DNA from: a virus
Reading direction: 5' to 3' (one strand)
DNA: 36,841 bases
Virus record (IMG/VR): IMGVR_UViG_3300030451_005417
Span: 1-36,841 of that record
Shown piece by piece: positions 16,260 through 35,976 of the stretch. Under the pieces are notes generated by a model. It searched no databases. It worked only from the letters and a program-made list of their open reading frames with translations, and was not told the origin of the DNA. How positions within the stretch are numbered: position 1 is the first letter of the stretch; every line of letters begins with the position of its first letter. The position numbers and the translations under genes are program-made.

Positions 16260-16279
16260 TTTATTTTTTTACAATTATA

Positions 16280-18578: not shown

Positions 18579-18598
18579 GTTTTGTGTTTTGTTATATG

Positions 18599-18618: not shown

Positions 18619-18623
18619 TCATA

Positions 18624-18926: not shown

Positions 18927-18928
18927 TT

Positions 18929-20371: not shown

Positions 20372-20372
20372 T

Positions 20373-20525
20373 TTAATTTTCTTTTACTGCGTTAATTGTT
20401 TCTATTGTTTTCCATTCTTCTTCTTCACTTAATAATAATAAGTGGCTGTAATACATTCTTAGAGTTTCTTCTTCATATTCTTCTAACTCTCTTTCTTCGA
20501 TAAACTTTTCTTTCATTTTACTCAT
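20373..20525 (-). CDS. Leading 50-aa acidic peptide of the replication operon
   Basis: ATG at 20525 gives MSKMKEKFIEERELEEYEEE...; Glu-rich, helical, 50 residues, ending one base before the next ATG. It is the first gene after the early promoter on the minus strand. Composition (about a third Glu) recalls small DNA-mimic or inhibitor peptides, but this is only an impression. Could also serve as a translated leader for coupling. Confidence 0.55.
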   Translation of the reverse strand: MSKMKEKFIEERELEEYEEETLRMYYSHLLLLSEEEEWKTIETINAVKEN

Positions 20526-20526
20526 A

Positions 20527-20587
20527 GTTTTGTGTTTTTAAATTTAATGCAAATATTGCTATAATAATTTAAACTACCAAATTTTTA
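20527..20587 (-). promoter_or_regulatory. Early promoter element copy D (replication operon)
   Basis: On the minus strand: AAAAATTTGGTAGT, then ATATTTGCAT, then AAATTTAAAAACACAAAAC and the ATG at 20525. TTTGG (20581-20577) is separated from ATATTTG (starting 20556) by exactly 20 bases, as in copies A, B and C on the plus strand. It fits a Bacteroidetes-type sigma promoter with extra shared sequence. Confidence 0.75.
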
Positions 20588-20609
20588 TAGTCTTTTTTTA
20601 TTTTATTCC

Positions 20610-20641
20610 ATAAATTTCCCTACCTGTGCAATAAATTTCCC
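20610..20641 (+). repeat. Two direct repeats ATAAATTTCCC, 21 bp apart
   Basis: ATAAATTTCCC occurs at 20610-20620 and 20631-20641. The 21-bp step is two helical turns, so both copies face the same side of the DNA, as in operators. They lie in the 163-bp divergent region between the replication operon and the head operon. No other feature explains them. Confidence 0.6.
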
Positions 20642-20670
20642 AATTTTTGCAAGAATTATTATTATAATTG
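20642..20670 (+). promoter_or_regulatory. Weak late promoter candidate before the head operon
   Basis: TTTTTGC at 20644-20650 and TATAATTGCAT at 20663-20673 are the only promoter-like pair before the ATG at 20689. TATAATTG differs from TAnnTTTG by one base and the spacing is short, so the site may need an activator, perhaps at the adjacent direct repeats. Confidence 0.35.
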
Positions 20671-20688
20671 CATATTAAACTATATACT

Positions 20689-22242
20689 ATGCCTTGTATA
20701 AAATGTGGTGAATCAAGTTATAAGTGGGGTGAGAACGGAGAATGTAAGTATAGTTCTCTATCTGCTTGCGAATCTGCAAACTCAGGTTATAACAACGAAA
20801 CATACAATGACTATCCACAATCTGCAACTAACAATGCTAAAAGAGCAATAAAGTACAAAGAAGAAAATGGTTCTGACTGTGGTACTAATGTAGGTTGGAC
20901 TCGTGCTGGTCAATTAGCAAGAAGAGAAAGTCTATCAAGAGATACTATTGCTCGTATGGCATCATTTAAAAGACATCAACAACATAAAGATGTGCCTTAT
21001 GATGAGGGTTGTGGAGGTATTATGTGGGATGCTTGGGGAGGCACAAGTGGTGTTGAGTGGGCTATAAAAAAGCTTGAAAGCATAGATAAGAAAAACGAAA
21101 CACATTTTGACCATGAATATAATTTTAGTGAAGAAGAAATGAAAGAACTTCACGAAAAAGGTGTTTTATATATTACTCAGGTTGACGAAGATGGAACTGA
21201 AATGGTAATTAAATTTACATATCAAGACGGAGAAATAAGAGAACACACTAATTTTAAAAATTTAAAAGATATGAATTGGTATAATATTAAGAACCTTTCT
21301 CAAAATTCTACAGAAGTAGTAATTTATGATGAGATTGGTCAATGGGGTATAGACTCCAAAAGCTTTATTGAAGAAATAAAACAAATTTCCACAGAGAATA
21401 TTCTATTAAGAATAAACTCCCCAGGTGGTTCAGTTATAGATGGTCTTGCTATACATGACGCTATTAAGCGTATGCCTCAGAAAGTAACTGCACAAATCGA
21501 GGGTCTTGCTGCTTCTATTGCTACTATTATAGCTTTAGGTGCTGACGAGATTTCTATGAGTCAAAATAGCTTGTTTATGATTCATAATGTATGGGGTGGA
21601 GAAACAGGAGGGGCAAAAGATATGAGAAAAGCTGCTGACCTAATGGAAAAGATGGGAGACAGACTTGTAAATATCTATGTAAGTAAAACAGGTAAAGACG
21701 AATCTGAAATCCGTAACTGGATGGATGAGGAAACTTGGTTTACAGCAGACGAAGCTCTTGAAGCTGGTTTTATTGACTATGTTGATGAACCTATTGCTTT
21801 GGCAGCTAAGTTTGATATTAATAAGCTTAACTACAAAAATACAAGCATTGTAGTTGACATGTTCAATTCTAACAAAAAATCATTTAAAATGGAAAATCAA
21901 ATTGAAGAACTAAAGAACTTCATTTCTGATTTATTCAACAAAAAAAATAAAGTTGATAAATCAGAGGTTGTGAATGTTCTTGAAAACGAAGAAGTTGCTG
22001 CTAAGATTTCTGAGTTGGAAAACGCTATCAGCCTTTCTGATGACAACTTAACAGAATTAACTGCTTCTTTAGAAGAAAAAGAGTCTAACATCGTTGCTTT
22101 AATTGACGAAGTAAAGGCTTTGGAAACTAAATTAGCGAAGTACGAGGGTACTTCAAGTAATGTTGTTCCTGAAAAAGACCCAGCACCAGTAAAATCTGAA
22201 ACTGCTTCTAATTCTTGGGATGACTTAGTAAATATATTTTAA
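20689..22242 (+). CDS. Prohead protease (ClpP/S14 type) with N-terminal DNA-binding-like and C-terminal scaffold domains
   Basis: 517 aa from the ATG at 20689; a TTG at 20668 is rejected. Residues about 40-130 (NAKRAIKYKEENG ... VGWTRAGQLARRESLSRDTIARMASF ... WDAWGGTSGVEWA) match a domain found in many phage proteins. Residues about 200-390 are a ClpP-like protease: INSPGGSVIDG, Ser276 in GLAASIATI, His299 in MIHNVWGG. The last about 115 residues are coiled coil with an acidic end, like a scaffold. It matures the prohead by cutting scaffold and capsid precursors. The major capsid gene follows. Confidence 0.88.
   Translation: MPCIKCGESSYKWGENGECKYSSLSACESANSGYNNETYNDYPQSATNNAKRAIKYKEENGSDCGTNVGWTRAGQLARRESLSRDTIARMASFKRHQQHKDVPYDEGCGGIMWDAWGGTSGVEWAIKKLESIDKKNETHFDHEYNFSEEEMKELHEKGVLYITQVDEDGTEMVIKFTYQDGEIREHTNFKNLKDMNWYNIKNLSQNSTEVVIYDEIGQWGIDSKSFIEEIKQISTENILLRINSPGGSVIDGLAIHDAIKRMPQKVTAQIEGLAASIATIIALGADEISMSQNSLFMIHNVWGGETGGAKDMRKAADLMEKMGDRLVNIYVSKTGKDESEIRNWMDEETWFTADEALEAGFIDYVDEPIALAAKFDINKLNYKNTSIVVDMFNSNKKSFKMENQIEELKNFISDLFNKKNKVDKSEVVNVLENEEVAAKISELENAISLSDDNLTELTASLEEKESNIVALIDEVKALETKLAKYEGTSSNVVPEKDPAPVKSETASNSWDDLVNIF
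21889..22242 (+). CDS. Possible nested scaffold protein (in-frame internal start)
   Basis: An in-frame ATG at 21889 follows an A-rich stretch like the leaders of other genes here. It would make a 117-aa protein (MENQIEELKNFISDLF ... SNSWDDLVNIF) made of coiled coil. This repeats the lambda C/Nu3 arrangement, where the scaffold is the C-terminal part of the protease gene expressed on its own. No separate scaffold gene is otherwise visible. Confidence 0.45.
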   Translation: MENQIEELKNFISDLFNKKNKVDKSEVVNVLENEEVAAKISELENAISLSDDNLTELTASLEEKESNIVALIDEVKALETKLAKYEGTSSNVVPEKDPAPVKSETASNSWDDLVNIF

Positions 22243-22260
22243 CTAAAAAAATAAAAAAAA

Positions 22261-23226
22261 ATGGCAAATTTTATAGGAACTCCAATTTCATGGAGTCAAG
22301 AAGATGCTGCTAAGTATTTCTTACAGCCTTTATTTATATCAAATAATGACTTATCTCATTTTGATGTAATGACAAATATTTCAGGTTCATCTATCAAGCT
22401 TGATAAGTACGCATCTATAAGTGGTGTAACAAAAGCAAATGGTGGTGGTTCTTTCGCTGCTCCAGCAGCTGCTTTATCAAATAATACAGCTGTAACTTTA
22501 AATTTAGACCGATTATTGATTGAATCAGAGCAAGGTGCTTATGCTTTATATAACCATATCAAGTCTCAGTTGATGAAACAAGGTATTTCAAGAAGCGACC
22601 TTACTGGTACTCTTTTAATGGAAATTGTATCTGAATTACTTATGGGTGGTATTATGCGTGATTTCTCTACTATCTTATGGTGGGGTGATAAAACAGCTGG
22701 TGCAGGTGTCGCAGTTCAAGGATTATCTGATGGTATTTGGAAAGCATGTGATGGTGTTGCAGCAGTTGCTTACACAGGTGTTGTTTTAGATGACCTTGCA
22801 GACTTGATGACAAATCGTAGTAATGAGTTAGCTGCTTCTGAACAAGTAATGTTCGTTTCTCGTGCTTTTGCTGACCAATACAGAAAAGAGTTAACTGAAA
22901 AAAGTGTTCAAGGTGCTTACCAAGATTTACAAGGTGGAATTGCTCAGTTGTCTTACAATGGTATTCCAATGGTTGTTAAGCCTGACTTTGATGTGAATAT
23001 TGCAACTTATGGTGCTACATTATCAGCTAACAGCCCAAGTGCTACAACTAATACTGCATGTGCAATTTTATTAGCTAAAGATGCTATTGCAATAGGTACT
23101 GACTTTGAAGTACAAGATGTAGATATGTGGTATAATAGAGATGAGCAAAAAAATCGTTTCAGAATGAACTATTCATTCGGATGTGCTTTGAAAGATGATT
23201 CTTTAGTTGCTAAAATCGTAGCTTAA
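22261..23226 (+). CDS. Major capsid protein (HK97 fold)
   Basis: 321 aa, following the protease by 18 bases. The order N-arm, long helical spine (NHIKSQLMKQGISRSDLTGTLLMEIVSELL), P and A domain strands and a C-terminal strand (MDVEVQ-like DFEVQDVDMWYNRDEQKNRFRMNYSFG) fits HK97-type capsids. GTDFEVQDVDMWY near the end is typical of the axial domain of capsids in Bacteroidetes phages. Gly/Ala-rich and neutral with better codon use than neighbours, as expected for the most abundant protein. No insertion domain is obvious. Confidence 0.82.
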   Translation: MANFIGTPISWSQEDAAKYFLQPLFISNNDLSHFDVMTNISGSSIKLDKYASISGVTKANGGGSFAAPAAALSNNTAVTLNLDRLLIESEQGAYALYNHIKSQLMKQGISRSDLTGTLLMEIVSELLMGGIMRDFSTILWWGDKTAGAGVAVQGLSDGIWKACDGVAAVAYTGVVLDDLADLMTNRSNELAASEQVMFVSRAFADQYRKELTEKSVQGAYQDLQGGIAQLSYNGIPMVVKPDFDVNIATYGATLSANSPSATTNTACAILLAKDAIAIGTDFEVQDVDMWYNRDEQKNRFRMNYSFGCALKDDSLVAKIVA

Positions 23227-23257
23227 ATATTAACTAACTTTTAAAAAATAAATAGAT

Positions 23258-23896
23258 ATGAGTTTATTAAACGGACATGAAGTTATATGTTGCGATAGAA
23301 ACCGAAGAGGTGGTCTAAAGCGTATATACCTTATGGATAAAGAAGAGTTGTCAGCTGCACCATCTTATAGTGCTGCTACAAACATGTACACAACTTTTCC
23401 TACAAATAAGTTGTATGAATTTCAGTTTGACAGATATACTGGTGGATTTGATGCAAACGCAACTCGTGAAAATGGTAGTACAGTTGTAAATGTACAGCTT
23501 AATTTTTACATACCTAAAGTAACTGCTAAAGCTAACAAGGTGTTAGACCAGTTGGCAAAAACTTGTGGTTTGATTGCCATTGTTGAGACTTACGCAGATG
23601 ACTGTGGAGACCCTGACGCTACTCCTAATCCTATACCTGCTAAGACATATCACTTTGTATTAGGTTACGATGAGATATTCAAGGATGATTCATACTTAGA
23701 CTTTGTCTCAGGTGAAGAAACTACTGGTATAGCTTTACAGGATGCAAATGGTGCTCAAATCGCTTTAGCTGGTGATGCTGCTATGTACCCAATAGGGTTA
23801 AATGTAGGGACAGCTACAGGTGAGTTAGAAATTGTACACCCAACAGGTGGTGGCACAGGCCCTGAAGATGCTTACGAGGTAGCAGTAGTTTCATAA
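23258..23896 (+). CDS. Probable major tail tube protein
   Basis: 212 aa, beta-rich. The form VYDVDRTG-like YLMDKEELSAAP ... YEFQFDRYTGGFDANATRENGSTVVNVQLNFYIPK ... FVLGYDEIFKDDSYLDFVSGEETTG suggests the beta-sandwich of tail tube subunits, and it ends in an Ig-like or added strand region (LNVGTATGELEIVHPTGGG). It sits directly after the major capsid gene and before the strong hairpin, consistent with high expression. A head decoration protein is the alternative. Confidence 0.5.
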   Translation: MSLLNGHEVICCDRNRRGGLKRIYLMDKEELSAAPSYSAATNMYTTFPTNKLYEFQFDRYTGGFDANATRENGSTVVNVQLNFYIPKVTAKANKVLDQLAKTCGLIAIVETYADDCGDPDATPNPIPAKTYHFVLGYDEIFKDDSYLDFVSGEETTGIALQDANGAQIALAGDAAMYPIGLNVGTATGELEIVHPTGGGTGPEDAYEVAVVS

Positions 23897-23911
23897 TAAC
23901 TACTAATAATT

Positions 23912-23950
23912 GAAAATAAGGGGAGGTGTTTGACATCTCCCCAAATTTTC
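23912..23950 (+). other. Hairpin overlapping a promoter
   Basis: GGGGAGGTG (23920-23928), loop TTTGA, CATCTCCCC (23934-23942): nine pairs, one G-T. GAAAAT at 23912-23917 and ATTTTC at 23945-23950 extend it beyond a small AA/AA bulge. The 3' side is followed by a weak T tract, so it can act as terminator for the capsid/tube transcript. It also contains the -33 box of the next promoter in its loop. Confidence 0.75.
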
Positions 23951-23959
23951 ATATATTTG
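23929..23959 (+). promoter_or_regulatory. Bacteroidetes-type promoter for portal block
   Basis: TTTG at 23929-23932, 19 bases, TATATTTG at 23952-23959: a full match to TTTG-N19-TAnnTTTG. The -33 box lies in the loop of the hairpin at 23912-23950. The expected start point is about 23966, shortly before the ATG at 23977. It separates portal-block from capsid expression. Confidence 0.75.
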
Positions 23960-23976
23960 CAACAAATAAAAATACT

Positions 23977-24285
23977 ATGGCTTATAAATTAAATAAAAAG
24001 CTTCTAAATGTATTTGTTAGACCTTACGCAGGTAAACAAGTAAAGTTTTTGAAGTTAGGAATAGGCATGATTGATTTTTCATCTAAAGAAAAAATTGATG
24101 AAATTGCTGAGAACCAAGAACTGTTAGGTAAATTTTATCAACTTGGTTTTAAATGGGTGTCATGCACAGAAAAAGATTGCTGCCAAAAACCAAAAGCGTG
24201 TACTAAAAAAGATAAAGTAAATGGAGTCAAAGAAAAAGCAGTCAAGAAAGAGAAGCAGGTATCAAAAGCCAGCAAGAAAGAATAA
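23977..24285 (+). CDS. Small basic Cys-cluster protein, 102 aa
   Basis: ATG at 23977 follows the promoter and an A-rich leader; earlier in-frame codons lie inside the promoter. The sequence MAYKLNKKLLNVFVRPYAGKQ ... QLGFKWVSCTEKDCCQKPKAC ends in a lysine-rich tail. Four cysteines in CTEKDCCQKPKAC could bind zinc. It overlaps the portal start by 65 bp. The N-terminal half resembles short head-associated proteins of Bacteroidetes phages, but I cannot name it. Confidence 0.6.
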   Translation: MAYKLNKKLLNVFVRPYAGKQVKFLKLGIGMIDFSSKEKIDEIAENQELLGKFYQLGFKWVSCTEKDCCQKPKACTKKDKVNGVKEKAVKKEKQVSKASKKE

Positions 24286-25519
24286 ATTACTTGCCTACGG
24301 ATTTTCAAAAGAACTTGCTCAAGATGTTCCTGAAGAGGTAAAAAGACTTGATAAGCTAAAACACTCTTGGATTCCTTTTGGGGATGATAACTTATTCCCA
24401 CAACATTTAAGTGAACTGTCAAGATGTGCCTCTACTCATAGAGCTATCTTAAATACTAAAACAACCTTTACCATTGGTGAGGGTTTTGACACTTCTGACG
24501 AGTCTTTAAGTGAATACATTAAAGATGTAAACGCAGATGGAGAAAGTCTTGACGATGTGATGAGAAAGGTAGCAGATGACTACTGGACTTTTGGTAACGC
24601 ATACCTTGAGGTTGTTGTTGGCAAAGGTTATATAAATTTATATCATCACGATGCAAGCACAGCAAGAGTTGCTAAAAACAAAAAGAAAATATTATTCCAC
24701 GCTAACTGGAAAGATGTAAGAAGAAGTGAAGAGAAAATAAACTCTCTTGACATATATCCTACATTTAAAAAATATGCAAAGGGTGTACAGCGTTCTGTAA
24801 TACACTTTAGTGATTACGAAAGTACATTCTATTATTATGGTTTACCTGATTATGTGGCTGCCTTAGACCACATAAAGATAGCAAATCAAATAGGTAAATA
24901 TAATCTTACAAGATTTAAAAATGGATTTATGCCATCTGCAATTATTGAGTTAGGGGCAGATATGTCTGAGGAAGAGGCACAAATCTTTATTGACGAAGCA
25001 AGAGAAAAGTTGACTGGAGAAAACAATAACTCCAAAATACTATTTATAGCTAAGAATGGTGATGAGTCTGCTTCTAATGTACAAGTTATAAATGATACAA
25101 GTGATGGTTCTTTTATGGAATTACAGACCATTACTAATGATAATATAATTTCAGCTCACAGATGGAATCCTGCTTTATCAGGAATACAGGTTGCAGGTTC
25201 TTTAGGTAATAACCAGCAGATTTTAACTATATATGATATAGTTATGTCAACAGTTATTAAAGAGCCACAACACATGTTGTGTAGAGAGTTGAAAAAAGTG
25301 TTAAAAAGACACGCAGGTTACAATGTTTCTGACTTACATATAGTAAACAAGCCTCCAGTTACTATGCTTGGTGCTATAAATCCTACTGATTACATTTCAG
25401 TTCAAGAGGGTAGAAAAATATTCCACTTACCTGAACTAACAGAGGAAGAGTTAGAAAATTTATTAATAGAAAAAAACATGATTCAAGATGGCATTGATAA
25501 CAGCGACACAGGTAATTGA
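24221..25519 (+). CDS. Portal protein
   Basis: 432 aa. It forms the dodecameric ring through which DNA enters and leaves the capsid. Recognisable features are the N-terminal WIPFGDDNLFPQHLSELSR, the wing/stem region (ILNTKTTFTIGEGF ... DDYWTFGNAYLEVVVGKG), YLPDYVAALDHIKIANQIGKYN, and the crown (GDMSEEEAQIFIDEAREKLTG, AHRWNPALSGIQVAGSLGNNQQ). The pattern is of PBSX-like portals. The first 25 residues are strongly basic (KKKQSRKRSRYQK) and lie in the overlap with the previous gene. A 32-bp overlap joins the connector gene. Confidence 0.85.
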   Translation: MESKKKQSRKRSRYQKPARKNKLLAYGFSKELAQDVPEEVKRLDKLKHSWIPFGDDNLFPQHLSELSRCASTHRAILNTKTTFTIGEGFDTSDESLSEYIKDVNADGESLDDVMRKVADDYWTFGNAYLEVVVGKGYINLYHHDASTARVAKNKKKILFHANWKDVRRSEEKINSLDIYPTFKKYAKGVQRSVIHFSDYESTFYYYGLPDYVAALDHIKIANQIGKYNLTRFKNGFMPSAIIELGADMSEEEAQIFIDEAREKLTGENNNSKILFIAKNGDESASNVQVINDTSDGSFMELQTITNDNIISAHRWNPALSGIQVAGSLGNNQQILTIYDIVMSTVIKEPQHMLCRELKKVLKRHAGYNVSDLHIVNKPPVTMLGAINPTDYISVQEGRKIFHLPELTEEELENLLIEKNMIQDGIDNSDTGN

Positions 25520-26243
25520 TACAGCTTTTACAAACAAGAATACTGACCAGTATTTAGTTAAGCCTGCTTTCATTGAGATTGCTGAGCATAACTTTTTAAT
25601 GCCAGCTATTGGAGAAAAGCTTTATGAAAATATTAGTGAAGATGCTGCTGATGGTGTTCAATGGACTTATCTTGATGTAGAATGTCAAATATTGGAAAAC
25701 AATAACATTGTTTTTGTACATTCAAATAATATTGGCGATGTTAATTTTATATCAGTTGGTGATTTTGTAACATCCCCTGACCTACCTTTATATGAAGATG
25801 GCACAAACAGTGATGGCGAATGTTGTAGAGGTTTTAACAAGGTAATAGAAGTTGATAAAAATAATGACAATAATGTTATAGCTTTTAAAATATCAGGTGC
25901 TCCTAAAGTATCAACATCTCTTTCAAAAATCAAAGTAAGAAAACCAAATGGTGTTCTTGTAGAAGATTATGTGCGAAAGTATTTAGCTTTTTGCGTTAAG
26001 TTTGAGATGCTTCCTGACATGAGCTATAATACTACATCACAAGGTGTTGTTGAGAATGTTGCAGAATTTACTATGCCAGTAGATGCTAAGAAGCTTAGTT
26101 TTCTTAGAAACGAAACATTTAAAAAATCTGAGGCTTATCAAAGAATAATGATAAAGTTTTTAGAAGATAATGATGAATCTTACCCTGATTATACACCTGA
26201 TGGGGGTAATGTAAGTAAGAAAAACGGAATTATATTATATTAG
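25488..26243 (+). CDS. Head-tail connector (DUF6712-like) with inserted domain
   Basis: 251 aa. The N-terminus (LITATQVIDTAFTNKNTDQYLVKPAFIEIAEHNFLMPAIGEKLYENI) and the C-terminal half (DYVRKYLAFCVKFEMLPDMSYNTTSQGVVENVAEF) are the two helical halves of DUF6712/gp6-type adaptors below the portal. In ordinary members they are nearly contiguous. Here residues about 57-154 are an added beta-rich segment with CC and several Asp/Asn. It overlaps the portal gene by 32 bp. The added part may project outside the neck. Confidence 0.65.
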   Translation: MALITATQVIDTAFTNKNTDQYLVKPAFIEIAEHNFLMPAIGEKLYENISEDAADGVQWTYLDVECQILENNNIVFVHSNNIGDVNFISVGDFVTSPDLPLYEDGTNSDGECCRGFNKVIEVDKNNDNNVIAFKISGAPKVSTSLSKIKVRKPNGVLVEDYVRKYLAFCVKFEMLPDMSYNTTSQGVVENVAEFTMPVDAKKLSFLRNETFKKSEAYQRIMIKFLEDNDESYPDYTPDGGNVSKKNGIILY

Positions 26244-26244
26244 T

Positions 26245-28155
26245 ATGCCAAGTAATTTTCACTCAGATTTACCAAACGACCAGCTGCATGACCCAAAAGA
26301 CTTTGCTTTAGCTAACAATTCAAGTGCTTTAGTAAAAGATGAAAGAGGTGATTTGTCCTGGAAAACTCCTCCTTATGACCTTGAAACAACAATAGAATGT
26401 GCTTCTGATGTTTCAGGTGGATTACACAATACAAGCTTCTTTATAGAAAAAGACGCTTCAACTAAATATCAAGTTTATTTTGAAGTTGCTGGTCAAACTA
26501 CTACTCCTACAATAGTTGCAGGATATACTGGTGCAAAAGTTACTATAATAACTAATGATACAAATGTACAAGTTGGTAACGATTTGACAAGAGAATTAAG
26601 AGCAAAAGGTTTCACAGTTGTTGACCAAAACACAGGTAGGCTTGTAGTAAGTGGCATGAGTGATGTTAATGATACTATTGACGATAATACTGACTTTGGT
26701 TTTTCAAATAGAAAAATATTTAACTCTACAACAGTGTTAACCTCTACTAATGGTGCTATCAGTTGGACTGTTGGTAGTGGTGGTGGTGGTGCAGTTAGTG
26801 ATGTTGCCACTATTACTGCTGGTACATCTACAGGTACGCCAATAACAATAAGCCCAACAAAAGGTAATGTAAAAGTTAGGTCAAATGCTTATGATGGTGG
26901 TAATAAGGTAGGACATGTTCCAGCAGGTGGTGATAGTACAAAATTTTTAAGAGGAGATGGAACTTGGCAAGCTGTATCAAGTGGAGGTACTACTTATGCA
27001 GGTGGAGGTGGTATTGATATTGATACTACTAAAACTCCGAATGTAATATCGATTGATAGTAATGTTGTTATAACAAAATCAGACAATCAATATATTACAG
27101 GAGATAAAGAATTTGCTGGGAATGTGATTATGAATAATGCTACAAATGTTTATGTACCAATAGCAACTGTTACAGATAACAGTGCTCGTGCTGCATCCAC
27201 AGCTTGGGTTAACAACCAACATTACGGACAGGGTACTTTAACAAAAGTTGAAACAGGAGATGGTTTAAATAGAATTACAATAACTACAAGCAGTGATACG
27301 GATGGTAAGATTGAGCTTGACAATACAGTTATAAGAAATTTTGGTACTCAGAGTATAGGTGGTGATAAAACATTTAACAATCATGTACAGGGTGTAACAG
27401 CAAGTCGTGGTGATTCTACTGTGAAACTTGCTACTTGTGAGTTTGTGCAAAATGAAATATCTAATTTAGGTGGAGGTACAGTGCAAACAGTTACAGCTTC
27501 TTCCCCTTTAAAATCAACTGGTGGTGCTAATCCTGATATTAGCATACCAAGAGCATCATCATCAGCAGCTGGGTTTTTATCACAAACAGATTATAATACT
27601 TTTAATAGTAAACAAAATAGATTAACTCTTACCACTACAGGTACTGGGCCTGCAACGCTTGTTGGTGCTACACTAAACATACCACAATCAGCTGAAGAAA
27701 GGTTCACTAAGAGCTTTAGGGGTTCTGTAGATGTTAGTAGAGCTGGTACTTACTTTCAAACTACATCAGGTAGGCCTTTAGCTCATACTATTGATATTTC
27801 TAAGGGTAATAAAAGTATTGACTTTATAAATGGTGCTTTTCACTTTGTTGTAACTGGTAGAGAGGTTTTTGGTATGCTTGGTGGAATAGTAGAGGGTACT
27901 GGAGACATTAAATTTCAGCTATGGTCAATGCAGGTTGATTGTGCTGGTGTAAATCAACCAACTTTTAAAATGGAACTTGAAACTGCATTTATAACTCTTG
28001 TACCCAATAAGCCAGTTTGTTGGTTAATTACAACAGGTTCAGGTAAAAAATTAACAATAAATCCAGGCACATCATTGGTTTTAGGTATAGTGCCAGGACA
28101 ATCTGACGCTGTCGTAGCATCATATAATGCTCACTATAGTTCAATTACATCATAA
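26245..28155 (+). CDS. Fibre/appendage protein, 636 aa
   Basis: The N-terminal motif (LPNDQLHDPKDFALANNSSALVKDERGDLSWK) is one I associate with neck or head fibres of Bacteroidetes phages. Residues about 210-410 contain fibre motifs: GDSTKFLRGDGTWQAV, VTDNSARAASTAWVNNQHYG and RGDSTVKLATCEFVQNEIS. Ser/Thr/Gly-rich beta repeats lead to a C-terminal globular part (about 490-636; FRGSVDVSRAGTYFQTTSGR ... TNPGTSLVLGIV), likely receptor-binding. Location after the connector suggests attachment at neck or head rather than tail tip. Confidence 0.65.
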   Translation: MPSNFHSDLPNDQLHDPKDFALANNSSALVKDERGDLSWKTPPYDLETTIECASDVSGGLHNTSFFIEKDASTKYQVYFEVAGQTTTPTIVAGYTGAKVTIITNDTNVQVGNDLTRELRAKGFTVVDQNTGRLVVSGMSDVNDTIDDNTDFGFSNRKIFNSTTVLTSTNGAISWTVGSGGGGAVSDVATITAGTSTGTPITISPTKGNVKVRSNAYDGGNKVGHVPAGGDSTKFLRGDGTWQAVSSGGTTYAGGGGIDIDTTKTPNVISIDSNVVITKSDNQYITGDKEFAGNVIMNNATNVYVPIATVTDNSARAASTAWVNNQHYGQGTLTKVETGDGLNRITITTSSDTDGKIELDNTVIRNFGTQSIGGDKTFNNHVQGVTASRGDSTVKLATCEFVQNEISNLGGGTVQTVTASSPLKSTGGANPDISIPRASSSAAGFLSQTDYNTFNSKQNRLTLTTTGTGPATLVGATLNIPQSAEERFTKSFRGSVDVSRAGTYFQTTSGRPLAHTIDISKGNKSIDFINGAFHFVVTGREVFGMLGGIVEGTGDIKFQLWSMQVDCAGVNQPTFKMELETAFITLVPNKPVCWLITTGSGKKLTINPGTSLVLGIVPGQSDAVVASYNAHYSSITS

Positions 28156-28164
28156 AATTAAAAA

Positions 28165-28701
28165 ATGGCAACAACAGTAAATGATTCAAAACTAACAACT
28201 ACAACATCAGACAGAATAATTCTAAATGGTGTTACTTATGGAGGGCAAACTTCATCAGAAATAAATAATTGTGATGAGGTTTATAACAGAATAATGACAA
28301 TACCTGCATTTGCAGTCGATGGTCAAGGAGCTATGACGCAAGATTTTGTTTCTATTGTCTCGGCAACACCATTACCAAACTCTGCTGGAGATGTAGAGTT
28401 TGCTAAATTTGTGTATGCAAGAATTACTAACCTTGATGACAGATACCCTATAGCAATTAGGGTTGCTGATAATGTTGACCCTCGACAAGCTACCATGGTG
28501 TATGTGGTTCAAATTCCAGCAGGCACAAGTTATATAGTACACAGTGCTGGTTTTTTTGCAGACGACCAAAATATAAATGCACAGCAGGTTTATGGTAGAA
28601 GTGCAAGCAACAATAGAGTTCTTGCAATATCTGCTGTAGCTTCTAATGAAGAGAATACAGGTGATGGTTGTGATATAGAGGTTTTCGTGGTAACAAAATA
28701 A
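28165..28701 (+). CDS. Probable structural protein (decoration or fibre partner)
   Basis: 178 aa, beta-rich, no signal peptide. It begins MATTVNDSKLTTTTSDRIILNGVTYG, like fibre-associated proteins, and has a well-formed beta domain (FAKFVYARITNLDDRYPIAIRVADNV ... AGTSYIVHSAGFF). It follows the fibre gene by nine bases and overlaps the next gene by one base. Candidates are a capsid decoration protein or a fibre tip. I do not recognise the family. Confidence 0.5.
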   Translation: MATTVNDSKLTTTTSDRIILNGVTYGGQTSSEINNCDEVYNRIMTIPAFAVDGQGAMTQDFVSIVSATPLPNSAGDVEFAKFVYARITNLDDRYPIAIRVADNVDPRQATMVYVVQIPAGTSYIVHSAGFFADDQNINAQQVYGRSASNNRVLAISAVASNEENTGDGCDIEVFVVTK

Positions 28702-29000
28702 TGGCTACAGCAGCACAAGAAATAGCGTTGATGAAACAGAGAATGGACTCTTTTGAGGACAAATTAGACTCTATGGATAGTAAGCTTGATAGACTAACAT
28801 CAAGCCTGCTTAATCCTGATGATGGATTTGTTTCTCGTGTAAATAAAAATACAGAGTTTAGAGAAATTAAATTGGAAAAATACGATACATTAGTGCAAGA
28901 GTTTCAAGATATGAAGAGGTGGAAGTCTAATGTAACAAGAGCACTTTGGATTATATTTGCAACTGTTGTAGGTGTTTTAGTTAAAATGTTTATAATATGA
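28701..29000 (+). CDS. Coiled-coil protein with C-terminal membrane helix (lysis block)
   Basis: 99 aa. An N-terminal coiled coil (MKQRMDSFEDKLDSMDSKLDRLTSSL), a middle helix, and a hydrophobic end (ALWIIFATVVGVLVKMFII). The layout is that of XhlA-type or similar accessory holin proteins: cytoplasmic coil and one membrane anchor. It shares ATGA with the DUF5675 gene, placing it in a lysis cassette. No lipobox or signal peptide is present, so it is not a classic spanin. Confidence 0.6.
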   Translation: MATAAQEIALMKQRMDSFEDKLDSMDSKLDRLTSSLLNPDDGFVSRVNKNTEFREIKLEKYDTLVQEFQDMKRWKSNVTRALWIIFATVVGVLVKMFII

Positions 29001-29482
29001 GATTAAAAGTATTAAGATTTAGTTCCAAGCCTGATTCCACATCAGGCTTACTTTTTGAAGAGAATGACTTAGGGCTTAATTTTCTATGTTATACTCTTGA
29101 AGATGAAAGAAGAGCATTAAAAGTTATGGGTGAGACCAGGATTCCTGCTGGTAAATATAATATAGAATTAAGAAAAGAGGGTGGATTTCATGAAAGATAT
29201 ACTAAAAAATATCGCAATATGCACATCGGTATGCTTCATATCGTTAATGTTCCTGGGTTTGAGTATATCCTTATACACACTGGGAATACTGACGAACACA
29301 CTGCTGGTTGTCTCATCGTTGGGGATTCACAAGAGAACAATGGAATCATTAAAGATGGTTTTGTGGGTAAAAGTGTTAATGCCTACAAGAGAATTTATCC
29401 TCGTATTGCAAAAGCTATTGAAAAAGGAAAAAATGTAACTATTGAATATATTGATTTAGACGCACAAATATGGGTATCTTAG
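28997..29482 (+). CDS. DUF5675 protein, candidate peptidoglycan-acting enzyme
   Basis: 161 aa. DUF5675 proteins are common in Bacteroidetes phages near lysis genes. Visible are the N-terminal strand RFSSKPDSTSGLLFEEN, LEDERRALKVMGETRIPAGKY, and the core IHTGNTDEHTAGCLIVGD (residues 93-110). His94 and Cys105 sit like the H-x-G ... G-C of L,D-transpeptidases (YkuD fold). I infer a cysteine enzyme acting on peptidoglycan, perhaps the endolysin or cell-wall modifier. No other lysozyme or amidase is found. It lies between two membrane-protein genes. Confidence 0.65.
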   Translation: MRLKVLRFSSKPDSTSGLLFEENDLGLNFLCYTLEDERRALKVMGETRIPAGKYNIELRKEGGFHERYTKKYRNMHIGMLHIVNVPGFEYILIHTGNTDEHTAGCLIVGDSQENNGIIKDGFVGKSVNAYKRIYPRIAKAIEKGKNVTIEYIDLDAQIWVS

Positions 29483-29859
29483 GTAAAATATTTAGCAAAG
29501 GAGCTAAAGGACTTGTCGATTCAGTCGGCAGTATTATTGATGAAGTACATACATCAGATGAGGAAAAGCAACAAATGAAGCTTAAAATTCAAGAGATGAT
29601 TACATCTCATGAAGCAAAAATACAAGAGCAAGTTACAAGGCGTTGGGAAGCCGATATGAAAGGTAATTGGTTAACAAAATCAATAAGACCTTTATCTTTA
29701 GCTTTCTTGCTTTTAGCATTGACAACTTTCACATTAGTTGACTTTGGTTTTGTCGATTTAGACATAAAAGACTCATGGATAGAGCTTTGGAAAATGCTTG
29801 CTATAACTGCTTTTGGGGCTTACTTCGGTGGTCGTTCTTATGAAAAGATGAAAAAGTAG
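29470..29859 (+). CDS. Holin of the GTA 3TM type
   Basis: 129 aa. The first half is amphipathic (GKIFSKGAKGLVDSVGSIIDEVHTSDEEKQQMKLKIQEM ... ITSHEAKIQEQVTRRWEADMKGNWLTKSIRP). Two hydrophobic helices follow (SLAFLLLALTTFTLVDFGF and KMLAITAFGAYFGGRSYEK). The WEADM...W(L/K)xxxRP boundary and C-terminal GG are typical of PF11351-type holins. It makes pores that release or trigger the lytic enzyme. It overlaps the DUF5675 gene by 13 bp. Confidence 0.75.
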   Translation: MGILGKIFSKGAKGLVDSVGSIIDEVHTSDEEKQQMKLKIQEMITSHEAKIQEQVTRRWEADMKGNWLTKSIRPLSLAFLLLALTTFTLVDFGFVDLDIKDSWIELWKMLAITAFGAYFGGRSYEKMKK

Positions 29860-29890
29860 TTGCATTTAACAAAAATATTCGTTAGTTTTG
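29860..29890 (+). promoter_or_regulatory. Promoter before the metallophosphoesterase
   Basis: TTG at 29860-29862, 20 bases, TAGTTTTG at 29883-29890, exact for the TAnnTTTG -7 box. The predicted start (about 29897) is about ten bases before the ATG at 29907. The gap after the holin stop is short, so this gene is separately driven. Confidence 0.6.
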
Positions 29891-29906
29891 CTCAAACAAA
29901 AGCAGA

Positions 29907-30662
29907 ATGAAACAATATAGACCTCGTTTGTCTAAGGAAGAAAACGATATGTTACAGGCATATAGGAACTCTAATAATGTTGGAATTATTGGAGACACTC
30001 ATGAACCCTTTTGCCATCCTTTATATAGAGACTTTTGTTATGAAGTCTTTTCTCGATTCGGTGTTTCAGAAATTATACATATAGGCGATGAGGTAGATAA
30101 TGCTGCTCTATCTTATCATGAGAAGATAGTAGAGATGCCTAATGCTGAAAGCGAAGCAGAGAAAGCCCAAAAAGCGATGGAAAAGTGGTATGAGACTTTC
30201 CCTGATGTTAAAGTTTGTGTAGGTAATCACTCAGCTTTACCATTTAGGAAAGCTACAACAGCAGGAATACCAAGTAGATTTATGAAAACCTATGAGGAGA
30301 TATGGAAAGCTCCAAAAGGTTGGCAGTGGGAGCTATCCTGGGAGATAGATGGCGTATTGTACGAGCATGGAACAGGTAGTAGTGGTATTTCAGGTGCAAG
30401 AAACAGAGCACAAGCCAATAGGCAGTCAACTGTTGTAGGGCACTCTCACTCTTTTGGTGGAGTTTCTTATATGGCCTCCAGGAATGACATAATATTTGGT
30501 CTAAATGTTGGCTGTGGAATAGATGTTGACCACATGGCTTTTAGTTATGGTAAGAATTTTCCTAAGAAACCAACTTTAGGGTGTGGTGTAGTTATAAATG
30601 AGGGTAGAACTGGTATATTTGTACCTATGGATTTAGGTAGAAGAAATTTATATAAATTTTAG
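29907..30662 (+). CDS. Calcineurin-like metallophosphoesterase
   Basis: 251 aa. Metal motifs in the right order: GDTH (29-32), GDEVD (60-64), GNHS (106-109) and GHSH (178-181). Usual families have GNHD or GNHE at the third motif; Ser here is unusual. It would hydrolyse phosphomonoesters or phosphodiesters with a two-metal centre. Substrate unknown; RNA, cyclic nucleotide or DNA-end processing are all possible. It has its own promoter and is unrelated to the lysis genes before it. Confidence 0.82.
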   Translation: MKQYRPRLSKEENDMLQAYRNSNNVGIIGDTHEPFCHPLYRDFCYEVFSRFGVSEIIHIGDEVDNAALSYHEKIVEMPNAESEAEKAQKAMEKWYETFPDVKVCVGNHSALPFRKATTAGIPSRFMKTYEEIWKAPKGWQWELSWEIDGVLYEHGTGSSGISGARNRAQANRQSTVVGHSHSFGGVSYMASRNDIIFGLNVGCGIDVDHMAFSYGKNFPKKPTLGCGVVINEGRTGIFVPMDLGRRNLYKF

Positions 30663-30695
30663 TGAGCAAGCTACTTGAGTGCTGCATATATGTTC

Positions 30696-30742
30696 TAATT
30701 GGGGAGGTGTAAAGAAGTGGTCGTCTGCGACCTCCCTAATTA
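30696..30742 (+). other. Structured RNA element with 13-bp stem and alternative inner stem
   Basis: TAATTGGGGAGGT (30696-30708) pairs fully with ACCTCCCTAATTA (30730-30742), one G-T. In the 21-base loop, GGTCG (30719-30723) can pair with CGACC (30728-30732), which would use the start of the outer 3' arm, so the two folds compete. No T-run follows. It is in the 94-bp gap between the phosphoesterase and the gene at 30757. Confidence 0.6.
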
Positions 30743-30756
30743 CTTAAAAAAATGTA

Positions 30757-30993
30757 ATGAAAGAAGAAATACAAAATACTACTTTCAATATAAGTTTGAA
30801 AACATTGTTTACAATAATTGCGTTTAGCTTTGTTGCAATAGGAGAATATATAGTCTTACAAAAAGAGATAGAAGAAGCTAAGGAACTACCTGAAAATCAG
30901 GTAAGTAGAATAGAATTTGAGTATAGCAAAGAGAAACTGCAAAATCAAATTGACATTTTAAAGGAAGAGATAAGAGATTTAAAAGACGACTAA
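30757..30993 (+). CDS. Membrane-anchored coiled-coil protein, 78 aa
   Basis: A hydrophobic segment near residues 13-34 (LKTLFTIIAFSFVAIGEYIVL) precedes a charged coiled coil (KEIEEAKELPEN ... KEKLQNQIDILKEEIRDLKDD). Topology suggests inner-membrane anchor with a cytoplasmic or periplasmic coil. It begins at a start-stop overlap, where ATGTAATG at 30752-30759 contains a one-codon start followed by stop immediately before the real ATG. Role unknown; could be spanin-like or superinfection-related. Confidence 0.65.
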   Translation: MKEEIQNTTFNISLKTLFTIIAFSFVAIGEYIVLQKEIEEAKELPENQVSRIEFEYSKEKLQNQIDILKEEIRDLKDD

Positions 30994-31005
30994 ACACTAA
31001 TTGTT

Positions 31006-31188
31006 ATGAAAGAAAAAGCAATACAGTGGGGTTGGGAAGCTCAAAAGCCAACAAACATGAGGTCAAAAGAACATCAAGCTTTCCTTATCAAAAAATACAA
31101 TAAAGGCAGACCCCAATCAGAAAGAGTAAAAACTATGGCTGAGCTAAACAAGGCTCTAAAAACAAATGATATTAAATATAGAAAGTAA
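31006..31188 (+). CDS. Small basic hypothetical protein, 60 aa
   Basis: Basic and short (MKEKAIQWGWEAQKPTNMRS ... MAELNKALKTNDIKYRK). No cysteines or membrane segment. Its last codons run into the first AAAAGTCCTG repeat (stop at 31186-31188). The leader TAAACACTAATTG resembles the duplicated leader before 35019 and 35349. Function unknown. Confidence 0.55.
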   Translation: MKEKAIQWGWEAQKPTNMRSKEHQAFLIKKYNKGRPQSERVKTMAELNKALKTNDIKYRK

Positions 31189-31213
31189 AAGTCCTGGGGA
31201 AAACCTTTTAATA
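31187..31213 (+). repeat. AAAAGTCCTG dispersed repeat, copy 1
   Basis: Ten bases identical to copies at 31351, 33516 and 34741, then ...CTTTTAAT. It begins inside the stop codon of the gene at 31006. The 3' half varies between copies. Confidence 0.7.
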
Positions 31214-31318
31214 TTATTCCAAAAAGTTCTTGTATATATAATATATAATACCTAAATTGTTGCTAAACAATTTCGTTATTGTTTTTGTTTTGTTTTGTGT
31301 TATATCTTCTCAAAAAAG

Positions 31319-31342
31319 AAAGGGGTTTAGCCCCTTTTTTTT
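31319..31342 (+). terminator. Intrinsic terminator
   Basis: AAAGGGG - TTTAG - CCCCTTT followed by a run of T to 31342: seven pairs and eight Ts in all. It closes the transcript from the phosphoesterase or the structure genes. Confidence 0.9.
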
Positions 31343-31350
31343 ATTCCAAA

Positions 31351-31376
31351 AAAAGTCCTGACAATTTTGTTTTAAG
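31351..31376 (+). repeat. AAAAGTCCTG dispersed repeat, copy 2
   Basis: AAAAGTCCTG followed by ACAATTTTGTTTTAAG, nine bases after the terminator T-run. Shares the 10-mer with the other copies. Confidence 0.7.
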
Positions 31377-31447
31377 TGCATACGCACATGTTCCTATAAA
31401 CGCCCCTCGACACCCCTTATTTAGAATGATTCTAAATTATAAAATAG

Positions 31448-31508
31448 TTGCTATTTTTTTTGGTAGTCTTATTTATTTTTTGAATTATTTGTATGTAACT
31501 TAAAAACA
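31448..31508 (+). promoter_or_regulatory. Early promoter element copy A
   Basis: TTGCTATTTTTTTTGGTAGT, then GAATTATTTGTATGTAAC and TTAAAAACAA. TTTGG ends at 31463; exactly 20 bases later ATTATTTG is at 31484-31491. It precedes the gene at 31516. Confidence 0.8.
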
Positions 31509-31515
31509 ATTAATT

Positions 31516-31782
31516 ATGAGAAAAGTAAAAATAATGCAAAGAAGTGTTTATCACAAGGTGGCAGAGATAGAAGTAAATGTGCCAAGTGAATTAGATGAAT
31601 TTAATGTTCAGGAGTGGCTCACTGATAATGAGAGTCTATGGGTTGATGAGTTAGACCATAAAATGAATGAAACTGAGTTTGTTTTTGGTAATGGTATGGA
31701 AACTGACAACTGGACTGACTGGAAAGAGGATAGTGAATGGAGATACTATGATATTGACAATAAAACTGGAGGGCATTTATAA
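31516..31782 (+). CDS. Small acidic protein, 88 aa
   Basis: First gene after early promoter A. Strongly acidic with many Trp and Asp/Glu (EWLTDNESLWVDELDHKMNETEF ... METDNWTDWKEDSEWRYYDI). The first 20 residues form a beta hairpin-like start (MRKVKIMQRSVYHKVAEIEVNVP). A TAATG overlap joins it to the next gene. Unrecognised; charge and early expression fit a host-interaction protein. Confidence 0.6.
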   Translation: MRKVKIMQRSVYHKVAEIEVNVPSELDEFNVQEWLTDNESLWVDELDHKMNETEFVFGNGMETDNWTDWKEDSEWRYYDIDNKTGGHL

Positions 31783-32066
31783 TGAATTATGATGATTGGA
31801 AACTAAGTAACCCTATTGATGATGCAGGGGATAATATTTTAGTAAGCTCATGTTGTGGAGATGACTATGAGGAAGATGTTATGATTTGTGGAGATTGTGG
31901 CTCTTATGAGATTGAAACTAAAATGAACGCATCAGGAGATGAAATACTAACTTTCTGCAACGAATGTAATAGCGTTGAGAACGAGGACTATGTAGATTAT
32001 GTTTGCTTCAAATGTGATGAGCCTTGTGATGCTATACCATTGTGGGAATATAAACAAAAGATATGA
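31782..32066 (+). CDS. Acidic multi-zinc-knuckle protein, 94 aa
   Basis: Four cysteine pairs: SSCCGDDYEEDVMICGDC, FCNEC and CFKCDEPC, indicating two stacked zinc ribbons within 94 residues, with high Asp/Glu content around them. Ribbon proteins of this size can bind nucleic acid or replace a transcription factor. It overlaps its neighbours by TAATG and ATGA. The acidic surface makes protein binding more likely than DNA binding. Confidence 0.65.
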   Translation: MNYDDWKLSNPIDDAGDNILVSSCCGDDYEEDVMICGDCGSYEIETKMNASGDEILTFCNECNSVENEDYVDYVCFKCDEPCDAIPLWEYKQKI

Positions 32067-32212
32067 AACAAGTAATAAATGTGCCAGTATATTATCATAT
32101 TGATGATAATAACAAAATAGTTATAGACTATGAACAAATGAATGAGTTTTACAATGCAAAGATTGAAAGACTTAAAATTGATACAGAGATAACAAATAAA
32201 AAATATCGCTAA
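32063..32212 (+). CDS. Very small protein, 49 aa
   Basis: ATG at 32063 overlaps the previous stop (ATGA) and the frame runs to the TAA at 32210-32212: MKQVINVPVYYHIDD ... FYNAKIERLKIDTEITNKKYR. A short strand part then a charged helix. It ends just before early promoter B. Coupling to the upstream gene supports it being real. Confidence 0.55.
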   Translation: MKQVINVPVYYHIDDNNKIVIDYEQMNEFYNAKIERLKIDTEITNKKYR

Positions 32213-32270
32213 AAATTTGGATAGTAAATATTTTTTTAGAATTATTTGCATATAACTTTAAAACACAAAC
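32208..32270 (+). promoter_or_regulatory. Early promoter element copy B
   Basis: GCTAAAAATTTGGATAGT, 20 bases after GG, then ATTATTTGCATATAAC at 32241. The leader AAAACACAAACAA runs to the ATG at 32273. Almost identical to copy C over about 60 bases. Confidence 0.85.
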
Positions 32271-32272
32271 AA

Positions 32273-32650
32273 ATGGAAACAAATTTCACAACAAAATTAG
32301 AGGGGCTTGATGTTGATGTCTTTGGTTTAGAAACCTATGTAGATAGGAAACAAAATCATGATGTTGAGGCAGTAGCAGTTATCGACTGGTACTTATATCA
32401 AGAATTTAGAGAGTGGGGCGTTAATAGTATAGGTTGCTATGCTACTAAAGTAGCTATTGAGCTAACTATAAACTGGTGGAATGATGATGACTCAGTAGAA
32501 CAAAAAACACTTACTATTGAAACTGAACACACTTCAAATGACGACTGGCAAATTACAGAATATACTTCAGAGGTATCTTTTGGATATGTTATTCAACCTC
32601 AGTCATTAGAATTAAATTTTGATACAAAAGAAATAACAATAAACTATTAA
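32273..32650 (+). CDS. Acidic beta-rich protein, 125 aa
   Basis: ATG at 32273 after the promoter leader; an upstream TTG lies inside the -7 box and is rejected. Begins METNFTTKLEGLDVDVFGLET and has alternating strands (VEAVAVIDWYLYQEF ... KVAIELTINWW ... KTLTIETEHT). No known family. Acidic, with many Trp and Tyr, like its neighbours. Likely expressed early. A beta-sandwich binding protein is the fold impression only. Confidence 0.6.
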   Translation: METNFTTKLEGLDVDVFGLETYVDRKQNHDVEAVAVIDWYLYQEFREWGVNSIGCYATKVAIELTINWWNDDDSVEQKTLTIETEHTSNDDWQITEYTSEVSFGYVIQPQSLELNFDTKEITINY

Positions 32651-32652
32651 TT

Positions 32653-32904
32653 ATGGAGAAGAATATAAGACAAAGACTTGAATTAAGCGTTGTTAAATTC
32701 GCTTACACAAAGAAAAATGGTAAAGTAAGGTATGCAACTGGTACAAACAATATACCTCTCTTAAACGAGCTATTTTCACTTAAATTAAAAGAAGAAGATT
32801 ATGAGGCTCAAAAGAGAAATGGCACTACTACATATTATGATTTGGGTGCTATGAACTGGAGATGTTTTAGAGATGATAGTTTAATAGAAGTAATAAATGA
32901 CTAA
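32653..32904 (+). CDS. DUF2693-like protein, 83 aa
   Basis: The sequence VVKFAYTKKNGKVRYATGTNNIPLLNEL ... TTYYDLGAMNWRCFRDDSLIEVI fits DUF2693, a small beta-rich family in Bacteroidetes phages and mobile elements (KKxGxxRxAxGT ... YDL ... WRxFxxxxL). Function is not known. It follows the previous gene by two bases. Family call from remembered pattern. Confidence 0.55.
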   Translation: MEKNIRQRLELSVVKFAYTKKNGKVRYATGTNNIPLLNELFSLKLKEEDYEAQKRNGTTTYYDLGAMNWRCFRDDSLIEVIND

Positions 32905-32906
32905 AC

Positions 32907-33266
32907 ATGGGATATAGAAGCGAAGTATTTTTAGGAGTAGAAAAAAAAGAGGCAAAGAAACTTGAGAAAGTTTTAAAAGACCATGACTTATTAGAACACT
33001 TCCAAAAAAGTGAACACAATTTTAAGTATCAATATCAGAATAATGAATGGGTTGATAACTTGTGGCATATTTACAAAGGCTCATGGCTTAAATGGTATGA
33101 GGGCTATAAAGATGTTGATGCAATTACTGAGTGTATTGATAAGCTGTCAGGAGATGGAGATAAAGCCTTTCAGGTGGCACTTGGAGAAGATGGCGTTGTA
33201 CATTCTGAGGTAGGGGACTACTGGGATTATATAGAACATAGGTCTGAACTTGTAATTTTAGGATAA
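32907..33266 (+). CDS. MGYRSEV-type phage protein, 119 aa
   Basis: Begins MGYRSEVFLGVEKKEAKKLEK, an N-terminus shared by many small phage proteins of unknown role in different hosts. The middle has HNFKYQYQNNEWVDNLWHIYKGSWLKWY and the end is DYWDYIEHRSELVILG. Ferredoxin-like alternation of strands and helices seems likely. Coupled to the next gene by TAATG. Expressed from the promoter B transcript by position. Confidence 0.6.
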   Translation: MGYRSEVFLGVEKKEAKKLEKVLKDHDLLEHFQKSEHNFKYQYQNNEWVDNLWHIYKGSWLKWYEGYKDVDAITECIDKLSGDGDKAFQVALGEDGVVHSEVGDYWDYIEHRSELVILG

Positions 33267-33517
33267 TGAAAGTAGTAAGTAAAAGATATATAGAAAACCA
33301 TAAGTTTATGGAGTTTGTAAGCGAAATAGCTACACAATTAACTGAACTTAACTTTCATGATGAAACCTTTGTAGAGGTGCAAGATGGTCTATCAGATGGC
33401 ACTTGTATTGTCTTTACTGAAGATGCACAAGAGTTTTATAATGAAAGGTATGATGAGGTTGAAACTATGGTTAATAAAATTATGGGCGTATATTCTGACA
33501 ATGAATTGAATGAGTAA
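33266..33517 (+). CDS. Small acidic protein, 83 aa
   Basis: Helical, acidic (MEFVSEIATQLTELNFHDETFVEVQDG ... MVNKIMGVYSDNELNE). Starts by TAATG overlap with the previous gene. Its stop (33515-33517) is the beginning of an AAAAGTCCTG repeat. Unrecognised. Confidence 0.55.
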   Translation: MKVVSKRYIENHKFMEFVSEIATQLTELNFHDETFVEVQDGLSDGTCIVFTEDAQEFYNERYDEVETMVNKIMGVYSDNELNE

Positions 33518-33542
33518 AAGTCCTGAGCAATTCACTTTAATA
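33516..33542 (+). repeat. AAAAGTCCTG dispersed repeat, copy 3
   Basis: AAAAGTCCTGAGCAATTCACTTTA region; as in copy 1 it starts within a stop codon (TAA at 33515-33517). Confidence 0.7.
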
Positions 33543-33561
33543 CTAACTTAAAAAATGTACT

Positions 33562-33636
33562 ATGGCTTGGATAATAGTAGGCATCATGTTTCTACTGGCT
33601 TTTGTAGGAGTTTATAATGATGTAAGAAATTCATAA
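33562..33636 (+). CDS. 24-aa membrane micropeptide
   Basis: ATG GCT TGG at 33562 to TAA at 33634: MAWIIVGIMFLLAFVGVY then NDVRNS. One full hydrophobic helix and a short polar end. It fits no larger frame and follows the A-rich leader typical here. Such micropeptides can act on host membrane proteins, but too short to prove by eye. Confidence 0.45.
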   Translation: MAWIIVGIMFLLAFVGVYNDVRNS

Positions 33637-33687
33637 CTACAAATAATTAGAAATAAATTTTTAAAAAACAAATAAATTTACAAAATT

Positions 33688-33942
33688 ATGAAATTAGCTT
33701 TTGATTATGATAATAGCAAAAATAAGGGATTCGATTTGTACTTGTATATTAAGTCAAATTTATATGAAAAAAGTATAGCTATTGAAACTGGTGGTAAAAT
33801 AGAGGTCTTTAACTGGTATTATTCCCCTCAGACTTCAGGGACTTTTAAGCAAAAAGAAACCTATCAAAGAACTACTATTCAGAACATGGTGCAGAAGATA
33901 ATAAATACAATAAATAAAAATAAATTGAAAAAAAGTTGCTAA
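33688..33942 (+). CDS. Small basic hypothetical protein, 84 aa
   Basis: Begins MKLAFDYDNSKNKGFDLYLYI. Aromatic beta-rich first part and a lysine-rich helical end (MVQKIINTINKNKLKKSC). Preceded by an A-rich leader. Its 3' end runs into early promoter C, where the promoter's TTGCT overlaps its last Cys codon and stop. Unrecognised. Confidence 0.55.
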   Translation: MKLAFDYDNSKNKGFDLYLYIKSNLYEKSIAIETGGKIEVFNWYYSPQTSGTFKQKETYQRTTIQNMVQKIINTINKNKLKKSC

Positions 33943-34000
33943 AAATTTGGTAGTGTCAATTTTTTTTAGAATTATTTGTACAGAATTTAAAAACAAACAA
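33936..34000 (+). promoter_or_regulatory. Early promoter element copy C
   Basis: TTGCTAAAAATTTGGTAGT, 20 bases after GG, then ATTATTTGTAC at 33971, then TTAAAAACAAACAAAAAC. Nearly identical to copy B. It drives the gene at 34020. Confidence 0.85.
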
Positions 34001-34019
34001 AAACTAAAAACAAAACAAG

Positions 34020-34202: not shown

Positions 34203-34207
34203 AAACT

Positions 34208-35952: not shown

Positions 35953-35976
35953 TAAAAAATTATTATGCACTAAAAT

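Follow-up and report, generated by a model that had tools for sequence, protein, structure and literature searches.

Recurrent elements in an uncultured Bacteroidota phage probably represent host-type promoters with an extended -33 region

Results and discussion

Analysis of a virus record of 36.8 kb and 33% G+C (hereafter the window, i.e., the whole stretch of DNA analysed) revealed four closely similar elements, e1 to e4, which we regard with good probability as promoters with an extended -33 region. They would be recognised by RNA polymerase of the host in complex with sigma-A/sigma-ABfr, the primary sigma factor of Bacteroidota. The observations underlying this assignment are the identity of the elements, their recurrence, their position before genes and their distribution. 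The window represents an uncultured, marine-type Bacteroidota phage. Among named phages, its terminase was closest to that of Flavobacterium phage 11b (52.6%), followed by that of Cellulophaga phage phi10:1 (48.6%), and a flavobacterial host is therefore likely.

Architecture of the four elements

All four elements follow the common pattern (A5)TTTGG(n)TAGT-N15/16-TATTTG. Element e1 (31440..31515, plus strand) consists of an A/T-rich lead, TTTGGTAGT at 31459-31467 in the -33 region, ATTATTTG at 31484-31491 in the -7 region and an A-rich leader that ends at the ATG at 31516. In e2 (32198..32272, plus strand), an A-tract is followed by TTTGGATAGT (32216-32225), ATTATTTG (32241-32248) and the leader to the ATG at 32273, while e3 (33928..34019, plus strand) contains the A-tract GTTGCTAAAAA, TTTGGTAGT (33946-33954), ATTATTTG (33971-33978) and a leader to the ATG at 34020. 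The putative promoter of the replication operon, e4 (20526..20600, minus strand), shows an A-tract, TTTGGTAGT (20581-20573), AATATTTG (20557-20550) and a leader to the ATG at 20525. TTTGG starts at 31459, 32216 and 33946 on the plus strand and at 20581 on the minus strand; the sites proposed in the first-pass annotation are real, with its figures for the plus copies marking the A-rich lead and that for the minus copy lying 6 nt upstream of TTTGG. The four composite elements on both strands that it had described were all recovered, and their combined pattern matched the window four times, whereas 200 Markov simulations gave 0.01 matches on average. The looser pattern of that annotation gave five matches versus 0.24 expected, the fifth of which (2478, minus strand) was set aside as it lies inside a coding region.

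The TTTG of Bacteroidota sigma-A promoters was present, as TTTGG, in all four -33 regions. The class defined by A-tract, TTTGG and TAGT is complete in e3 and e4, whereas e2 carries one inserted base (GGATAGT) and e1 has T5 in place of A5. The distance of exactly 20 bases from GG to ATTATTTG or ATATTTG, as first described, was correct; when the copies are aligned on TTTG, 20 nt separate TTTGG from the -7 octamer in e1 to e3 (ATTATTTG), compared to 19 nt in e4 (AATATTTG). Counted from TTTG, the distance to the octamer amounts to 21 nt in e1 to e3 and 20 nt in e4, which fits the sigma-A spacing of about 20 nt and an optimum of 20 in the viral loci described below. The octamer is followed by the ATG after 24, 24, 41 and 24 nt in e1, e2, e3 and e4, respectively. 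Two of the plus copies had been called nearly identical over about 60 bases. Indeed, the copies at 32216 and 33946 form the closest pair and can be aligned locally, with gaps, over about 95 nt, but the extent was slightly generous, since the three plus copies, taken as an ungapped family of 51 nt, exhibit 73-82% identity to the first copy. A scan for E. coli-type promoters did not differ from shuffles (35 versus 35.1).

On the plus strand, e1 to e3 precede small groups of accessory genes, which encode proteins of 88, 94 and 49 aa with no assigned function (31516..32212, behind e1), of 125, 83 (WYL_2 fold), 119 and 83 aa (32273..33517, behind e2) and of 60, 52 and 90 aa (34020..34635, behind e3). 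A DNA-level search found no relatives of this accessory region among named phages. A GC-rich hairpin with a T run is located directly before e1 (31319..31345; listed as minus-strand by the hairpin scan, plus-strand when read from the sequence), so that a new transcription unit probably begins at e1. Element e4 precedes a replication/recombination operon on the minus strand (14737..20525) with genes for a DnaA-C-like helix-turn-helix protein, a replication initiator, a Toprim/DnaB primase-helicase, a dGTP_diPhyd_N protein and RusA. Protein-family searches gave matches to Bac_DnaA_C, replication-initiator (PHROG), Toprim/DnaB primase-helicase and RusA, in support of the earlier label of a replication operon. 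The earlier description of Bacteroidetes-type promoters before accessory genes and the replication operon was likewise supported. Furthermore, the gene at 35019 is preceded by a putative promoter at 34956-34985 (plus strand; TTTGCAGGATTAAAAAATTAATATACATTTG) whose -7 box is canonical. The site carries TTTGC at -33, and some promoters of the phage would therefore do without the extended form.

Occurrence in related phages

Using the primase-helicase and the large terminase as queries, we obtained 160 loci on related viral contigs, with some loci sharing a contig; sequence-identical matches were counted once, both in the survey of elements and in the tally of -7 boxes. A scan of related phages, which the first-pass annotation had put forward as a check, showed the set to be conserved; individual genomes carry several copies, which lie in the accessory region and ahead of the replication operon. 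Many relatives, including those with 67-90% helicase or ERF identity, carry the element ahead of the replication operon, and the accessory regions of records G005 and G007 and of locus L091 contain it several times each. The promoter of the gene at 32273 is kept before orthologues with just 39-47% protein identity (TTTGGTAGT...AATGTTTG in L084 and TTTGGTAGT in L094). Given this recurrence and the retention before diverged orthologues, comparative evidence indicates that the element is functional in the phage group. In more distant relatives, TAGT is lost, or the -7 box is incomplete.

Occurrence in host chromosomes and other viruses

The consensus of Bacteroidota promoters is TTTG (-33) and TAnnTTTG (-7) (PMC7366714, PMC6847099, PMC9723704). 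Elements e1 to e4 resemble promoters of the primary sigma factor (sigma-ABfr/sigma-A) in the TTTG, the 20-21 nt to the -7 octamer, the box ending in TTTG, the short leader to the ATG and the site directly before genes. They differ from the consensus in that the -33 region is extended to AAAAATTTGGTAGT, the -7 box begins with AA or AT and not TA, and the spacing in e1 to e3 is longer by one base. The first-pass annotation had argued that the conserved bases between and around the boxes exceed what sigma needs, suggesting a shared operator or leader. A search for AAAAATTTGGTAGT-N15/16-nAnnTTTG across some 85,000 genomes of prokaryotes located it in at least 119 stretches of public genomes. Among 80 titles listed for these matches, nearly all were Bacteroidota, mostly Prevotella-like and other Bacteroidales. 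The sequence TAnnTTTG occurred at 117 of the 120 chromosome sites listed, although the pattern does not require T at the first -7 base, and the gap was 15 nt at 112 of them. At 42 of the same 120 sites, a tRNA or tmRNA gene followed within 250 nt on the same strand, compared to 1.0% of random positions. A comparable pattern matched ten times in 148 genomes of Flavobacteriales, as opposed to no match for a reversed control, and eight of the ten lay just upstream of the gene of ribosomal protein S20 (rpsT). As a point against the host-promoter reading, the full TAGT form is rare in Flavobacteriales chromosomes (9 of 148 genomes), so that the closest chromosomal match to the phage element would be the promoters of Bacteroidales. 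One flavobacterium-like genome has AAAAATTTGG-N19-TATATTTG among its tRNA promoters. The resemblance extends upstream of the A-tract, where chromosomal copies are rich in A/T at 8-12 nt ahead of the A5 block, and AAAAAGTAGCTAAAAATTTGGTAGTCTC was read in individual host copies as well as in phage locus L087.

The promoters of Bacteroidota tRNA, tmRNA and rpsT genes that carry AAAAATTTGGTAGT-N15-TAnnTTTGCA thus share with the phage an identical A-tract, TTTGG and TAGT block at nearly equal spacing. In contrast to the phage copies, which would drive mRNAs with A-rich leaders, they possess a canonical -7 box, usually with CA after TTTG. The chromosome pattern was also frequent in viral contigs, with at least 120 matches compared to three for a scramble in which two letters were swapped (TAGT to ATGT). 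Among the 125 viral sites listed, TA was present in the -7 box at 118 and the 15-nt gap at 117, an ORF started within 150 nt at 95, and a tRNA gene lay beside none. In the viral loci, TTTG-N20-TAHHTTTG occurred 206 times outside the seed copies versus twice in reversed sequence, and 169 of the 206 instances had G after TTTG, with GTAGT and GTAGA as the commonest continuations; these loci had been picked for carrying the element, so that the counts describe such genomes and not viruses overall.

The same extended bases hence mark tRNA, tmRNA, ribosomal-protein and unrelated viral promoters, and for this reason we favour host promoters over an operator at which a phage or host regulator would bind the bases around the boxes and switch the accessory genes and the replication operon together. 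Several near-identical copies in one genome, conservation beyond TTTG/TAnnTTTG and the string TTTTTTnGAATTATTTG, which is common to the three plus copies and had no other promoter occurrence in viral contigs, would suit such an operator. However, the extra bases are not confined to this phage group, as would be expected of a phage-specific operator, but correspond to a general extended -33 region. The spacers vary among phages and among copies, no common palindrome was seen in e1 to e4, and a conserved module at the replication promoter (see below) is missing at e1 to e3. A shared operator consequently appears unlikely, and the similarity of the elements can be explained on present comparisons with no need for one.

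According to the favoured host-promoter model, RNA polymerase with sigma-A, which would be sufficient, recognises an extended -33 region in which a phased A-tract leads into AAAAA-TTTGG-TAGT, with 19-20 nt between TTTGG and a -7 box that ends in TTTG; a short A-rich leader would then suit translation lacking a Shine-Dalgarno sequence. In Bacteroidota chromosomes, the extended form serves genes with strong expression, namely those for tRNA, tmRNA and ribosomal protein S20, and many other Bacteroidota-type viruses use it as well. The phage would borrow a standard host 'on' signal and not a private switch. The accessory and replication genes are probably transcribed by the host machinery and early. 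If the elements are transcribed as assumed, the promoters may be strong and the genes immediate-early, and, judged from gene content only, joint early transcription by host polymerase on entry is plausible. Early promoters of coliphages imitate strong host promoters. The window phage would resemble them in having several promoters of presumably strong host type ahead of putative early genes, but recognition would be by a Bacteroidota sigma factor and not at TTGACA/TATAAT. What had been suspected to be a private phage switch can now be put as a testable statement, namely that these phages carry the promoter form of Bacteroidota tRNA, tmRNA and ribosomal-protein genes.

The -33 element of the phylum was reported as bare TTTG (PMC7366714) or as barely detectable in F. 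johnsoniae (PMC6847099). Our comparison suggests that at some promoters it is lengthened to A5-TTTGG-TAGT. No description of this form was found in the literature searched, a scope outside which most subscription papers fall, and searches on flavobacterial or Bacteroides phage promoters and on the string TTTGGTAGT returned nothing on point. The longer form would aid the prediction of phage transcription units from sequence and supply parts for Bacteroidota expression tools.

Off-consensus -7 boxes

None of the four elements has a perfect -7 box, which counts against the host-promoter model. TTTG is present in all of them, within AATATTTG in e4 and within ATTATTTG, one base further, in e1 to e3, and ATTATTTG lacks both T-12 and A-11. 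These two bases are nearly invariant in F. johnsoniae (PMC6847099). With TTTG in register, the phage family of the window showed AAnnTTTG in 6 of 11 and TTnnTTTG in 2 of 11 copies, as opposed to TAnnTTTG in 15 of 15 in other viral loci. Both observations would be consistent with activator-dependent promoters, in which a strong upstream half is combined with a defective -7 box and a phage-made factor helps RNA polymerase, much as MotA/AsiA assist it at T4 middle promoters. Yet the numbers are small, and the deviation is uneven, as the relatives G007 and L091 have TATGTTTG or TATATTTG at the same position. No candidate factor was identified, and we consider such dependence improbable. It is similarly doubtful that e1 to e3 form a distinct phage promoter class, in which an extended -33 region with A-tract and a non-canonical ATTATTTG 20 nt after TTTGG need an altered or assisted host polymerase; if true, this class would constitute a middle-type switch in flavobacterial phages. 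Matches to TTTGGTAGT-N14-18-ATTATTTG in viral contigs were rejected, since most lay within coding sequence (a recurring FGSGLQELLF-type stretch) and none had AAA directly before TTTGG; the -7 form of e1 to e3 therefore has no promoter counterpart in these contigs. The near-identity of e1 to e3, including the unusual ATTATTTG, is most simply explained by a promoter cassette copied within the genome.

Leader

The TTTAAAAACA leader is alike in all four elements, and it could in principle be the functional part, acting in RNA-level control as a conserved 5' leader. Its similarity is weaker than that of the -33 region, however, the A-rich leaders are unstructured and fold no better than shuffles, and no Rfam family matched the window. 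A-rich leaders are general in Bacteroidetes, where translation starts do without a Shine-Dalgarno sequence (PMC6847099), which accounts for the similarity; control by the leader is very improbable. When the leader was included in a strict pattern (TTTGGTAGT...TTAAAAACA), a single viral contig matched, a close relative; this part of the element is therefore local.

A module upstream of the replication promoter

Upstream of e4 only, a module (20601..20651, minus strand) comprises GGGAAATTTATGGAATAAA and a 21-nt tandem repeat (TGCACAGGTAGGGAAATTTAT/TGCAAAAATTGGGAAATTTAT) at 20610-20651. Its pattern, GGAAAT..TGGAA(T/C)A, recurs upstream of the replication operon in loci L012, L017, L019, L030, L048, L066 and others. 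In the relatives, it matched 31 times compared to once in reversed sequence, and nearly all matches directly preceded the replication operon, including operons that start with another gene. The module fits a candidate operator, or origin iterons, for the replication operon alone, and is a better candidate for either role than the four-copy element. Its restriction to the replication promoter argues against identical control of all four elements and points to a control of e4 that differs from that of e1 to e3. It is possibly bound by the DnaA-C-like protein of the phage. Within the replication operon, the gene at 18929-19354 (minus strand) encodes a protein of 141 aa with a Bac_DnaA_C helix-turn-helix (E 2.5e-10) and without the DnaA ATPase domain.

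Related sequences were observed near the large terminase gene. A strongly conserved non-coding stretch (GGGGTCTGATATTCACA...TTATGCACATTGTGTAA...TTTCC) at 35860-35976, shared by L083, L085, L087, L088 and L093, precedes the gene that lies upstream of the large terminase; read on the minus strand (GGAAATAAATTACACA), it is similar to the module of the replication promoter. In the more distant relatives L110, L126, L139 and L141, a module copy, GGAAAT(T/A)TATGGAACAAAAAGTTAG, is located just after the large terminase gene on the minus strand.
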